A stretch of 64,000 bases of DNA, from positions 1-64,000 of the forward strand of contig JAIOPP010000067.1 in assembly GCA_021413845.1 (NCBI GenBank), given 5' to 3'. Every line of letters begins with the position of its first letter. Position 1 is the stretch's first letter. Positions 18,789-39,756 of this stretch are shown in pieces. Below the pieces are notes generated by a model. The model made no database searches, was not told the origin of the DNA, and saw nothing but the letters and a program-made list of their open reading frames with translations. This stretch comes from Planctomycetia bacterium. Lineage in GTDB: Bacteria > Planctomycetota > Planctomycetia > Pirellulales > PNKZ01. The position numbers and the translations under genes are program-made.

Positions 18789-20189
18789 ATGGTCGTTATG
18801 CCGATGTTTTTAGCTCGCTTATTCCTCGACCGTCGCACTCCTTACGCCCTCTTTGCCGCCGCTATGGTAGGAGGGCTGCTCTTCCTAGAAGGTCCGCAAA
18901 AGGAGTTGCCGCGTTCGGCAGGATGCTTTAATCAACAGCAAGCGGTGGGAGGCGTGCGCGTCGACGCCTCGGGTGCGATCCGTCGTTTGGAGTTGGACGG
19001 TTTGAACGCGTTGGCTCGTGAGCGCGCAGACGTGGCGGCGTCGATCGCTCCGGAGATGAAGCGTGCGCACGGGATGCGTAAGATTTCGTTACGGGCGTTG
19101 GAAGCGGCGGTGGCGAAGAACCTGAAGACGGGGAATCCGATCTCGGACGAGATGAAGCTGTTGGCGGGCCTGCAAGAGATCCGCTACGTGTTCGTGTACC
19201 CGGAGCAACAAGACATCGTGTTGGCGGGCTTCGGCGAAGGCTGGAAGATCACGGCTCGGGGAGACATCGTCGGAGCGACGACGGGTAAGCCGGTCATGTT
19301 TCTCGACGATCTGCTGACGGCGCTGCGGCACGCGGAGCAAGCGGCGCAAGGGGATATCTCGTGCTCGATCGATCCGACCCCCGAAGGGCTCGAACGTCTG
19401 CGTCGTCACGTGGCGACGTTGACCGAGATCGGCGATCCGCAAGCGACGAGCCAAGGAATCGAGAAGGTGTTGGGTCCGCAGATGGTCACGGTGTCGGGCT
19501 TGGCTTCGACGTCGCACTTCGCGCACGTCATGGTGGCGGCCGACTATCGGATGAAGCGGATCGGGATGAACTTAGACCCGAGCCCTGTGCCGGGCCTGAC
19601 GAGCTACGTGCAATTGTTGAGCGGCGGCGGTCGAGGCATGTCGGCGGTAGCGCCCCGTTGGTGGCTGGTGCCGGACTTCCAACCGGTGCTGACGGACGAA
19701 GCGGGCTTGGCGTTCGAGTTGCGCAGCAAGGGGGTGAAGTGCCTGACGGAAGACACGGTGTTCACGGCCGGCGGCGTCAAGGCGCAAGCGGGCAAGTCGA
19801 GCCCTGCGGCGCAACGTTGGGCGGACATGCTGACGACGAAGTACGCGGAACTCGCGCAGAAAGAACCGGTGTTCGCGGAGTTGAAGAACGTGATGGACTT
19901 GGCGGTGGTGGGGGCCTTGATCCACAAGGAAGAGTTGGCACGCAAGGCGGGCTACAGCTTCCCGCTGTTACTGAACTCGACGGAATTGCCGACGGACAAG
20001 CTCCCTGAGGTGAAGCAGACGGACAGCGTGGCGAGCATGTTGAAGAAGGGTACGAACTGGATCATCTCGGCCTCGGGCGGGGTGCAGATCAACGCTTGGG
20101 CATTGGCCTCGGAGAAGCAAACCGGCCCGGAACTCGACTCCCTCCGCCCCAAACTCGCCGAACCCGCCAAACATTGGTGGTGGGATTAA
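18789..20189 (+). CDS. DUF1598-type secreted/membrane-anchored protein
   Basis: A 466-residue protein with an N-terminal hydrophobic segment (about residues 18-33) and then a conserved-looking body: LQEIRYVFVYPEQQDIVLAG (at about 128-147), EGWKI, GKPVMFLDDLL, CSIDPTPEGLERL and VAADYRMKRIGM. This pattern matches the planctomycete DUF1598 family as I remember it; its function is not known. The C-terminus ends KHWWWD. An alternative start is Met4. Its 3' end overlaps the convergent mfnE-like gene by 4 bases. Confidence 0.8.
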   Translation: MVVMPMFLARLFLDRRTPYALFAAAMVGGLLFLEGPQKELPRSAGCFNQQQAVGGVRVDASGAIRRLELDGLNALARERADVAASIAPEMKRAHGMRKISLRALEAAVAKNLKTGNPISDEMKLLAGLQEIRYVFVYPEQQDIVLAGFGEGWKITARGDIVGATTGKPVMFLDDLLTALRHAEQAAQGDISCSIDPTPEGLERLRRHVATLTEIGDPQATSQGIEKVLGPQMVTVSGLASTSHFAHVMVAADYRMKRIGMNLDPSPVPGLTSYVQLLSGGGRGMSAVAPRWWLVPDFQPVLTDEAGLAFELRSKGVKCLTEDTVFTAGGVKAQAGKSSPAAQRWADMLTTKYAELAQKEPVFAELKNVMDLAVVGALIHKEELARKAGYSFPLLLNSTELPTDKLPEVKQTDSVASMLKKGTNWIISASGGVQINAWALASEKQTGPELDSLRPKLAEPAKHWWWD

Positions 20190-20827
20190 GCGAACGAGGA
20201 TGTCGCGCGATAACGCGTCTCGGGGAAACCCGGCTCGCGAAAGTTGACGAACCGCACGTGAGGAATCCCTCGCGCCGCCGTATTGAAATAGTGATCGACG
20301 TAGTCGTTCGCCGTGGCTGAGTGAAACGTTGAAGCCGGCGTCGTCGACTTCAGCAGCACGAGCTCCTCGGCACCCAAGAGCGTTGCGGCCCGGGCGGCGA
20401 TCGAATCGCTCGACACGCTCCAATCGGCCGGCAAAGGATCGCAGCCCTCAACCGCTTGCGAGCACGTCGCATCGTGCTGCATGAAAGCCCAAGGATCGAT
20501 CCATGCCAGACCGGGGCTCGACGCGCGCTCGCTGGTCGTGCGAGCGTCGAAGCTAGTGATCCTCGCGCATTGCGGCATGAGCGCCGCCAGCATTTCGTAG
20601 TGGATCTGCATCGCGCGAATGCAAAGCCAATGCGCGGCTCGGTCGTCGAAACCGAGCGTTCGTTGTTGCTCGGCAATGGCATCGACCAAAGCTCCGCCGC
20701 CGGCAAGAAACAGCGTCTGCGCGGGAACTTGCTCGGCGGTCCAGCGTTGAAGATCGTCGACGAGCGTCGGGCTCGTCAGCAAGCTTCCGCCGACTTTGAC
20801 GATGCGGCGCATCACGTCGCGCGCCAT
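20186..20827 (-). CDS. mfnE: MfnE-like amino acid kinase family protein (methylofuran biosynthesis)
   Basis: A 213-residue protein of the amino-acid-kinase fold: RIVKVGGSLLTSP at the N-terminus, FLAGGGALVDAI for the second glycine-rich loop, and WSVSSDSIAARAATLLGAEELVLLK in the C-terminal half (the S-D-S-x-A and L-x-x-x-K features). In archaea MfnE phosphorylates the aminomethylfuran phosphate to its diphosphate, the activated half that MfnF joins to the glutamyl-tyramine half. The gene begins one base after the stop of the MfnD-MfnF fusion gene, so the two are translationally coupled. Other kinases of this fold are possible by sequence alone; the neighbour makes MfnE most likely. Confidence 0.8.
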   Translation of the reverse strand: MARDVMRRIVKVGGSLLTSPTLVDDLQRWTAEQVPAQTLFLAGGGALVDAIAEQQRTLGFDDRAAHWLCIRAMQIHYEMLAALMPQCARITSFDARTTSERASSPGLAWIDPWAFMQHDATCSQAVEGCDPLPADWSVSSDSIAARAATLLGAEELVLLKSTTPASTFHSATANDYVDHYFNTAARGIPHVRFVNFREPGFPETRYRATSSFA

Positions 20828-20828
20828 G

Positions 20829-22877
20829 CTAACGATCCTCGCCGATCAAGCGGGCCAGCGCATACGCCGGGCCGACCGTGGACGCATCCGTTCCCAGTTC
20901 CTCGGCCAAGGAGATGATCGCGCCGGCCCAGCCTCGGCGCGCGAGCACTTCGCGCGCGAGGAACTCTCCTTGTCCGCAGACGACGAACAGATCCGTCGTC
21001 GACGAGCGTCGTTGCTCCACTTGATCGAGCGCCGCGGAGATCGTCCGCACTTGCGCTTCGCGCACCGCTTGCGCCATGGCTTGTGCATCGTGAGCGTCGA
21101 ACGACGTGCGATCCGCGCAGACCATGCGCGCCAAGCGTTCCAGTGCGAATTCCTTCGTCGCAGGTCGGCCGTCGGCCGTGGCGACGTCGTCGCCATCTTC
21201 GGCGAGGTTGCCGAGAATCAAATAGGCATCGCGTGTCGTGGCGAAGAGCTCTTGAGCGGTGCCGCAAAGCCGGCCGCTCCAAGGCAGCGCCTGCGCAACG
21301 GCGCAAATCGGGCTTCGCACGACTCCCGTGTAGACCAATTCGCCGCTTGCCAAGCGATCGGAGTCGGTGCGTCCTTCGACTTCGGGCTTGCCGGCGACGA
21401 AAGGAATCAGATCGGTCGTGGTCGAGCCGATGTCGATCAAGATCCCCGTCAGCTTCGAGAACTTTCGCGCCGCAAAAGCCGCCGTGGCATACCAATTCGA
21501 CGCCGAGGCTTCGAGCCACCGGAGCTTCGCCTCTGCCGGCGCGACCATCGCGCCATCGGTCAACAAGACTCGCACCTCGACCGCCTTTCCCGTTCCGGAG
21601 AACGCCGTTTCGACGGCGTCGACGATCGCCGCGACCCCTGCTTGTTTCGTGCGAAAGCAATCGGCAAGCTCGCCGGTCATCGTCACGGCCACGCGTCTAA
21701 ACTCGGGCGCGTCGGCAAGGAGCGCGATGAGCGCTGCGGTCAGTTGTGCCGGCCGTTGCCACAACGGAAACGCTTGCGAGCGCACGAAGCCGGCGCCATC
21801 CGAGGCCTTGAGGTTCGCTCCGCCGATATCGAGTGCGAGCACGCGCGTCGTGGCGTCGCGCACGTTGCCGTCGGCATCGAACTCGACGACCTCGGAGCGA
21901 AACGATAACGTCGGCGGTCGTCCTTGCGCCACGTCGAGCATCGCGCGGGCCAGGCTCGCCTCGGCGAGGGCGCGCAGTCCGACGTACGAAGTGGTCAGCC
22001 GCGGGTTCACTTCGATCACGTAATCTTCCGAGCCGTCTTCGGCCGCGCCGAGAACGAGATCGAGTCCGATGAAGCCGGTCCATGCGGGCATCGCGTCGCC
22101 GGCCGCGAGCGCTAAGCGTCGGGCACGCGCGGCGAGGTCGGTCGTCAGCGGAACCTTGCCGCCGAGATATTCGAAGCGCCCTTCCTCTTTGATGCGCTGA
22201 GTGCAGGCCGGCAGTGCGAAGGTGCCTGCAGGGCCGCGCAGCAGGCCGATGCTCGCCGCTTGCCCGACGACGTAGCGCTCGAGCCGCCAAGTGCGCGGAG
22301 ATTCGCCGCGCGCATCTTGCCGGGTTTCATTCAAGCGGCGTACGTCGACGGAGCCGCAACCGTCGATCGGCTTGAGCACCGCCGGGGCCAGGAAATGCTT
22401 CGGCCACAAGTCGTCGGGGGTCAGCCGGATGCCCGTCGGGGTCGGGATATTGCCGGCGCGCAACGTCTCGGCGACGGCGTGCTTGTCCGAGGCCCAAGCG
22501 ATGAACTCGGCCGAAGGGGAAGCCAGCCGTCCGTTCAGTTGTTCGACGCGGCGCGCGAGCCCAGCAAGCACGCCATCGGTTTCCGGCGCAATCAGCAGCG
22601 CAAGGTCGGCCGCGGCCGCCAGGCGATCGAACGCTTCGGCCCGTTCCGCTTCGGAGTCGACGAGAATCGCGTTTTGAAAGTCGGGCGTTTGCGCGGCTAG
22701 CGCGGAGTCGAGCAGCCAGGAGACTTCGATCCCGTCGAGGGCTGTGAAATCGGCGACCAAGGTGTGGCGCATCGCCGCGGCTTCCGCCAGCAGCGGGCCG
22801 TGGTCGTCGAGTTCTCCCGTGTGCCGATTCGCGATGAGCCCGCCGCCGGTGACATGTTCGTAAACGAAGATTCGCAT
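20829..22877 (-). CDS. Fused MfnD-like ATP-grasp ligase and MfnF-like synthase (methylofuran biosynthesis)
   Basis: The start is ATG 22877 (MRIFVYEHVTGGG), giving 682 residues; the open frame extends upstream but reads as non-coding. Residues 1-335 are an ATP-grasp ligase: AWASDKHAVAETL, PAVLKPIDGCGS, and the metal-binding end YVIEVNPRLTTSYVG. This resembles MfnD, which links glutamate to tyramine (tyrosine in bacterial methylofuran). Residues 346-682 are an ASKHA/hydantoinase-A-like domain: VLALDIGGANLKASDG, GILIDIGSTTTDLIP, and VVCGQGEFLAREVL. This matches the MfnF family, formerly an uncharacterised H4MPT-linked C1 protein. The two enzymes act in sequence on the same intermediate. No stop or ATG lies at the junction. 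Confidence 0.85.
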   Translation of the reverse strand: MRIFVYEHVTGGGLIANRHTGELDDHGPLLAEAAAMRHTLVADFTALDGIEVSWLLDSALAAQTPDFQNAILVDSEAERAEAFDRLAAAADLALLIAPETDGVLAGLARRVEQLNGRLASPSAEFIAWASDKHAVAETLRAGNIPTPTGIRLTPDDLWPKHFLAPAVLKPIDGCGSVDVRRLNETRQDARGESPRTWRLERYVVGQAASIGLLRGPAGTFALPACTQRIKEEGRFEYLGGKVPLTTDLAARARRLALAAGDAMPAWTGFIGLDLVLGAAEDGSEDYVIEVNPRLTTSYVGLRALAEASLARAMLDVAQGRPPTLSFRSEVVEFDADGNVRDATTRVLALDIGGANLKASDGAGFVRSQAFPLWQRPAQLTAALIALLADAPEFRRVAVTMTGELADCFRTKQAGVAAIVDAVETAFSGTGKAVEVRVLLTDGAMVAPAEAKLRWLEASASNWYATAAFAARKFSKLTGILIDIGSTTTDLIPFVAGKPEVEGRTDSDRLASGELVYTGVVRSPICAVAQALPWSGRLCGTAQELFATTRDAYLILGNLAEDGDDVATADGRPATKEFALERLARMVCADRTSFDAHDAQAMAQAVREAQVRTISAALDQVEQRRSSTTDLFVVCGQGEFLAREVLARRGWAGAIISLAEELGTDASTVGPAYALARLIGEDR

Positions 22878-38494: not shown

Positions 38495-39202
38495 TTAACG
38501 GCGGACCGTGAGTTGCGGTAGCAGTGCGCGAATGGCGCGAATGCGGTCGGCAGCGATCTTCGCGGTTCGGCCCCCTTGGCAAGCCGCGCCCCGAACGGCG
38601 ACGTAATCCGCTCCGCAATCGACGACCGTGCGGATCGTTTCCAATGTCAAGCCTCCGCCGACGACGGCGAGCATTCCTCGTGCCTGAACCTCGACGACGA
38701 ATCGACGCAGCCGCTCGACGTTCCAATGGTCGAGCAACGTCCGGCCGTCTTTCACTCCGGTGTCGACCAGCACGGCGCGGGCTTCGAGCGAGATCGCTTC
38801 CGCGACGATCTCGTCGGTTTCCGGTGCGGCCGTGGCATCGGCGTCGGCATACGCGACCGCTACGAAGTCGACGCCGGCGGGTAAGCTGCGCCGCCACGTG
38901 CGCAACTGGGCGGGCCATTCCGTGCGTGTGCGGCAGCCGGCGAGGCCGACTTTGACGAACGCGATCCCCTCGGGCACATTCGGCAACGCATCGGCGAGCT
39001 CGCCGAGCGCCATGCTCAGCGGAACGTGGCGCCGTTCGCCGTGGCTCTCGTCGCGCAGCCGTACGATCTCGGCGGCGGTTTGGAAATCGACCGCACCGAG
39101 CGCTCCGCGCGTCGGTTCTTTCAGATCGATCAGGTCGACGCCGGCTTCGAGCGCGATCCGGGCTTCCTCGACGTCGCGTACGCTGACCAAGAGCCGCGTC
39201 AC
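38495..39202 (-). CDS. mfnB: (5-formylfuran-3-yl)methyl phosphate synthase, methylofuran biosynthesis
   Basis: The start is GTG 39202; its GTGA overlaps the stop of the upstream gene. The 235-residue protein is an aldolase-like barrel: TRLLVSVRDVEEARIAL and VDLIDLKEPTRGALGA at the N-terminus, FVKVGLAGC, VLVDTGVKDGRTLLDHW and VVGGGLTLETI at the C-terminus. Lys28, Lys84 and Lys151 match the three conserved lysines of archaeal MfnB, which condenses two glyceraldehyde-3-phosphate molecules into the furan ring. It supplies the furan half of methanofuran/methylofuran, used in the bacterial formyltransferase/hydrolase C1 route. The ligase/kinase genes are 18 kb away at 20.2-22.9 kb. Confidence 0.9.
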   Translation of the reverse strand: MTRLLVSVRDVEEARIALEAGVDLIDLKEPTRGALGAVDFQTAAEIVRLRDESHGERRHVPLSMALGELADALPNVPEGIAFVKVGLAGCRTRTEWPAQLRTWRRSLPAGVDFVAVAYADADATAAPETDEIVAEAISLEARAVLVDTGVKDGRTLLDHWNVERLRRFVVEVQARGMLAVVGGGLTLETIRTVVDCGADYVAVRGAACQGGRTAKIAADRIRAIRALLPQLTVRR

Positions 39203-39756
39203 GTCGCGCCCTTCGCGCCGGCCTGCGCTTGCTTGAGGTCGTAGAGGCGTTGATTGAGGCGGTTCACCAAGTCGACGCCGAGGGGCTCGGTCCAGGTCCC
39301 CCGAAGCGTGGCGAAGTTGCCGCACCAAGCGGCGAGCAGCGGCGCCGTCTCGACGTGCGAAAATTCTTCCGCCTTCTCCGCGATCCGGACGACGAGCGTC
39401 GTCGTCTCTTTGGTTTCGGTGCGATCGTCGGTGAAGAAGATCGGGCCGCGCCCCAAAAGAAACGCCTCGACATGCTCCAGCGGCACTTCCACCGGCGGGC
39501 CGAAGCGAACGTAGAACCGCACGCGACCGTCGTGATACGAAATGCGCGGGAGCCGCGCGATCAGCAGCAAAACCACGCCCCCGACGAGCGCGACGGAGAA
39601 TGCGGCCAGCAGCACGTAGAAACCGGTCGAAGTTCCGGTTTCCGAACGACGCCCGAGGGAAACGGCACCGATCACGCAAGCTACGGCGACGACGGCCGCC
39701 GCCGCGATGGGCAGCGCGAACGCGCGTCGATTCGCCTGTAACCAGGTTTCGGCCAT
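39199..39756 (-). CDS. Membrane protein of unknown function co-transcribed with mfnB
   Basis: A 185-residue protein with two membrane helices (about residues 13-34 and 46-67) followed by a soluble domain: PRISYHDGRVRFYVRFGPPVEVPLEHVEAFLLG (start cited as PRISYHDGRVRFYV). The soluble part has short beta-strands and a late helix (VNRLNQRLYDLKQ), the general look of PH-like or membrane-anchored small domains. Its stop codon overlaps the mfnB start by 4 bases, so the two are coupled. Whether it has any part in C1 metabolism is not known. Confidence 0.7.
   Translation of the reverse strand: MAETWLQANRRAFALPIAAAAVVAVACVIGAVSLGRRSETGTSTGFYVLLAAFSVALVGGVVLLLIARLPRISYHDGRVRFYVRFGPPVEVPLEHVEAFLLGRGPIFFTDDRTETKETTTLVVRIAEKAEEFSHVETAPLLAAWCGNFATLRGTWTEPLGVDLVNRLNQRLYDLKQAQAGAKGAT

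Follow-up and report, generated by a model that had tools for sequence, protein, structure and literature searches.

The 682 amino acid product of a reading frame at positions 20829–22877 (-) of the window, by which we mean the whole 64,000-nucleotide stretch of DNA analysed, is probably a bifunctional enzyme of methylofuran biosynthesis in which an MfnD/Orf1-like ligase and MfnF were brought together by the loss of a stop codon. It represents a new architecture of known enzymes and not a new pathway. A preliminary description of this DNA had reported a one-polypeptide fusion of an ATP-grasp ligase with an MfnF-like protein of the hydantoinase-A type at 20186–22877, a span that takes in both the fusion gene and the kinase gene following it. 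The fusion is borne out by a single ATG-started frame without stops, and by the Pfam and TIGR03123 matches to its two halves. The features concerned are as follows.

21858–22877 (-): N-terminal half, residues 1–340, MfnD-like ATP-grasp ligase (domain matches, trees, model, conserved residues)
21843–21872 (-): short linker, about residues 336–345 (in-frame GTG codons, low pLDDT)
20829–21842 (-): C-terminal half, residues 346–682 plus stop codon, MfnF-like (TIGR03123), hydantoinase-A fold (profiles, motifs)
20186–20827 (-): MfnE-like gene of the amino-acid-kinase fold, 1 nt after the stop codon of the fusion
38531–39193 (-): MfnB, 4-HFC-P synthase (PF04476), encoded once in the genome and about 16 kb away from the fusion

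The junction

The source genome is a 7.08 Mb draft in 167 contigs, which is the one point in favour of regarding the fusion as a sequencing or assembly error. We give that explanation almost no credence. Codons 294 to 379, which surround the junction, are free of stops in both alternative frames, and a single-base error could therefore not conceal an ordinary short-overlap gene pair, nor would one indel restore two ordinary genes; it is hard to ascribe the open frame to a mistake at one base. Third-position GC is level across the join. Furthermore, the separately assembled genome of a congener (G297) carries the same fusion, stop-free over residues 2–680 and with 53% identity.

A different possibility is that MfnD and MfnF are both functional but not, or not only, as one chain, with MfnF being freed by an internal GTG start or by later cleavage, and with the stop having been lost in a near-neutral event that brought no channelling. 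In-frame GTG codons, possible internal starts, are located at residues 339 and 346, and in G297 at residue 351, where AAGG precedes the GTG. In the whole-protein model, for which the alignment was shallow over the N-terminal half, the C-terminal domain is well folded and the linker (residues 328–343) is of low confidence, with pLDDT below 50; such a poorly ordered linker would suit this explanation, as would the congeners with separate genes and the many relatives in which ligase and MfnF share a frame that is interrupted by just one stop. Against it, no Shine-Dalgarno-like sequence was found before the internal GTGs of our gene, though the main ATG likewise has none, and the fused frame recurs, probably independently. 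On balance we think it rather unlikely, and prefer the bifunctional protein.

The N-terminal half

Pfam analysis revealed preATP-grasp_3 (residues 50–123; 8e-14) and ATP-grasp_3 (129–297; 3.6e-21) domains, which is the architecture of MfnD, together with conserved residues of the ATP/metal-binding type. Among the latter, K132, K169, E289, N291 and R293 all lie in this half and show little or no variation among the ligases encoded next to MfnF. As proposed in the preliminary description, each half was compared with profiles of the MfnD and MfnF families, and both assignments stood: TIGR03123 passes its cut-off for the C-terminal half, and MfnD_Meth is the only NCBIfam model that matches the N-terminal half substantially. 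The match to NCBIfam MfnD (NF040722) spans residues 28–320 (62.4 bits, E 4.5e-17) and does not reach the curated cut-off of 400; the homologue next to MfnF in Azospirillum likewise scores just ~61–63 bits. The nearest solved structure is Archaeoglobus 3df7, both by profile (2.9e-33, with the runner-up at 3.8e-10) and by fold, the model of this half (pLDDT 95) giving it as the best Foldseek match (1.4e-18). With methanogen MfnD and 3df7, a possible homologue of it, the N-terminal half thus has preATP-grasp_3 and ATP-grasp_3 in common, and a role as glutamate ligase fits. It differs from methanogen MfnD in being joined to MfnF, in its low score, and in coming from a genome in which no archaeal-type MfnA was found, so that tyrosine may be its substrate.

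MyfA (OrfY) and MyfB (Orf5) are also ATP-grasp ligases of methylofuran side-chain synthesis. Were the N-terminal half of the MyfA/OrfY type, it would add the second glutamate after MfnF has acted, and the fusion would tie a later step to MfnF. MyfA is partly similar to MfnD (PMC8141765), and ATP-grasp_3 is common to both. In the C1 clusters of Azospirillum and Aquabacterium an ATP-grasp_3 protein is encoded at each of two sites, between mtdB and mch and directly upstream of the MfnF-like gene. The former site we take to be the OrfY/MyfA position of methylotroph clusters. The proteins encoded there have a different N-terminal domain, with neither preATP-grasp_3 nor a match to MfnD_Meth, align unconvincingly with our protein, and are split from the MfnF-adjacent group in the tree with 100/100 support. 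By contrast, the Azospirillum ATP-grasp protein encoded directly upstream of MfnF aligns with the N-terminal half over its full length (34% over 327 amino acids, 4e-26). On this alignment, the tree, the presence of preATP-grasp_3 and the MfnD_Meth match, we place the N-terminal half with the MfnD/Orf1-like, MfnF-adjacent ligases; a MyfA identity is rejected on the same grounds and is most improbable, and MyfB differs in being of the RimK type.

The C-terminal half and the adjoining kinase

The C-terminal half contains a Hydantoinase_A domain (residues 394–656; 2.9e-30) and matches TIGR03123 over its full length (residues 349–678; 298 bits), above the cut-off of 244.1. Its nearest solved structures are the archaeal 3c0b/3cet (1.7e-42), and the DIGGAN and GSTTTD motifs are unbroken. 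In these respects, and in having MfnE adjoining, it resembles the MfnF/TIGR03123 proteins, including Orf9 of M. extorquens. Unlike them, it bears a ligase at its N-terminus, and the MfnF equivalog NF040623 (residues 346–678) gives 207.7 bits, under the cut-off of 520.

The kinase gene begins one base past the TAG stop of the fusion ('CGTTAGCATGGCG'), exactly where the preliminary description had put an MfnE-like gene. Its product passes the AA_kinase cut-off (33 bits) and shows 30% identity to the Aquabacterium kinase encoded after MfnF, and its match to MfnE (NF040622) is weak (38.5 bits; cut-off 300). The equivalog cut-offs for MfnD, MfnF and MfnE, all far above the scores obtained here, look tuned to methanogens.

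Distribution and origin of the fusion

TIGR03123 was matched in 187 of the 247 genomes of the order that were sampled, and tblastn with the fused protein gave matches in 270 of 397. Among the matches listed in the order, only the source genome and G297 show the two domains within a single uninterrupted frame; weaker matches were listed incompletely, so that rarer fusions may be missed. One more, a 733 amino acid frame of Planctomycetales bacterium 71-10 (L116, 3899–6100), was discovered among the best 80 loci of a scan of 84,980 species. Fusions suspected from frame length in G298, G294, G323, G408, G359, G439 and G513 proved to be open extensions that either run in the wrong frame or lack a ligase domain. 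Frames of over 700 amino acids in, for example, G338, G341 and G380 are apparently read-through, a profile search giving MfnF genes of 350–384 amino acids (of these, the sequence of G380 was inspected). The open-licence literature yielded no account of MfnD fused to MfnF. The fusion is sporadic, rare yet repeated, and not general in planctomycetes, and since the congeners G298 and G299 keep ligase and MfnF as separate genes, it is not needed for function.

The unfused pair is far more common. Among loci with room to tell, some genomes contributing more than one, 115 of 142, including those of Proteobacteria, Bacillota and archaea, have the ligase gene immediately upstream of MfnF, and 88 of 141 have a kinase gene immediately downstream of it. 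The adjacent pair was seen in loci of Azospirillum, Desulfosporosinus, Bathyarchaeota, Nitrososphaerales and Heimdallarchaeota. The genes, their order and their adjacency are the same as here, with two polypeptides in place of one, in Azospirillum, Aquabacterium, Desulfosporosinus, archaea and most Planctomycetota. The preliminary description had methanogens and M. extorquens carrying D and F as separate genes; this does not hold for M. extorquens, for which the absence of an MfnD homologue is reported (PMC8141765).

Trees were built separately for the two halves, and a mixed alignment of separate halves with fused proteins, which was poor, was left out. The three fused proteins are not sisters in either tree. 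In the N-terminal tree the fused G297 protein pairs with the unfused one of G299 (support 97; 99/94 in a second tree); in the domain trees the protein of the source genome is placed next to unfused congeners or to G294, and that of 71-10 far away. The linkers also differ, the domain matches being about 8, 18 and 57 residues apart. Given the non-sister positions, the simplest reading of these sequences is an independent, recurrent fusion of operon neighbours, the gene presumably having arisen when the stop that separated two genes, neighbours in most relatives, was lost. A single old fusion followed by repeated splitting inside the genus is a less simple alternative.

C1 genes elsewhere in the genome

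The source genome contains one TIGR03123 gene and one preATP-grasp_3 gene, both being the fusion, which is consequently its only source of either domain; mfnB is also present once. Among 14 control genomes, TIGR03123, preATP-grasp_3 and FTR were matched in the two methanogens only. The preliminary description had looked to H4MPT and fhc genes for support, and mfnB, fhcD and mch were found, plus an fhcA-like sequence. Two diverged copies of fhcD, both past the cut-off, are located on separate contigs (L100, 9181–10077 (-) and L101, 9032–10060 (-); 387 and 293 bits). One adjoins a lipoate ligase-like gene and the other lies between genes for a biotin ligase and a 5-formyl-THF cyclo-ligase. The fhcA-like sequence (G000:C8:23132–24594 (-); L209, 3089–4604) consists of two pieces, abutting or overlapping and in different frames, which score 336 and 291 bits, each below the cut-off of 392.75, and cover profile positions 2–246 and 308–554; they would be explained by a gene that is split or by a frameshift. 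The mfnB frame (38495–39679 (-) of the window) has ~160 residues without a Pfam match ahead of the 4-HFC-P synthase domain, possibly just an over-long start.

The sole mch (methenyl-H4MPT cyclohydrolase, PF02289; 413 bits, or about 408 bits in another search) forms the C-terminus of a 5098 amino acid polyketide/nonribosomal-peptide-type synthase (G000:C34; L184, 3160–18456 (+); L103). The MCH domain is preceded by AMP-ligase, methyltransferase, KS, AT, DH, ADH, KR, condensation, adenylation, carrier and thioester-reductase domains, and the gene is followed by one for a MyfB/MptN-like RimK ligase. G294 has the same synthase-mch fusion as far as its contig edge; in G297 synthase, mch, RimK and AMP-ligase are separate adjacent genes.

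An archaeal-type MfnA (tyrosine decarboxylase) was not found in the genome past the cut-off, the best match having 33 bits against 299. The supply of tyramine, from which archaeal MfnD makes glutamyl-tyramine according to the preliminary description, is therefore unproven; tyrosine may be what the ligase couples with glutamate, and a tyrosine-form methylofuran is possible. That form is known from M. extorquens (PMC8141765).

Proposed function and significance

Drawing the domain roles from the established chemistry of MfnD, MfnE and MfnF, we suggest that the N-terminal ATP-grasp domain would convert glutamate with ATP into an activated acyl-phosphate and link this to the amino group of tyrosine or of tyramine. 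Aminomethylfuran diphosphate would be made by MfnB, an aminotransferase and then the adjacent MfnE kinase, and the C-terminal MfnF domain would couple it with the glutamyl conjugate to give methylofuran-Glu1. Homology supports the presence of both activities; translation as one chain, the substrate (tyrosine or tyramine), the order of the steps and any channelling are what we infer. In bacterial methylofuran synthesis the enzyme joining tyrosine and glutamate is not known and the coupling order is uncertain, glutamate addition after furan coupling having been left possible (PMC8141765). The fusion fits either order. The low-confidence linker of the model suggests two tethered domains rather than a defined tunnel, so that channelling stays conjecture.

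The preliminary description had seen here a candidate planctomycete route to methylofuran. The domain identities and the C1 genes agree with this; the fusion itself was seen, among the matches listed, only in the source genome, one congener and 71-10, and the route is not new, since planctomycete H4MPT/methanofuran C1 genes have been known since 2004, according to work cited in PMC5020050. With a widespread ligase-MfnF pair and a rare but repeated fusion, the link between the two enzymes is strengthened more than a new pathway is revealed. A natural MfnD-like/MfnF fusion in non-sister lineages is 'Rosetta stone' evidence that the ATP-grasp protein adjacent to MfnF acts at the same point of the pathway, and it makes the two steps, the order between them and channelling open to testing on one protein. 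Perhaps, and we put this forward only tentatively, the fusion is a channelling enzyme in which the ligase domain couples glutamate with tyrosine. If so, the MfnD-like group would supply the missing ligase for tyrosine and glutamate in the bacterial synthesis of methylofuran, at least where MfnA is lacking.
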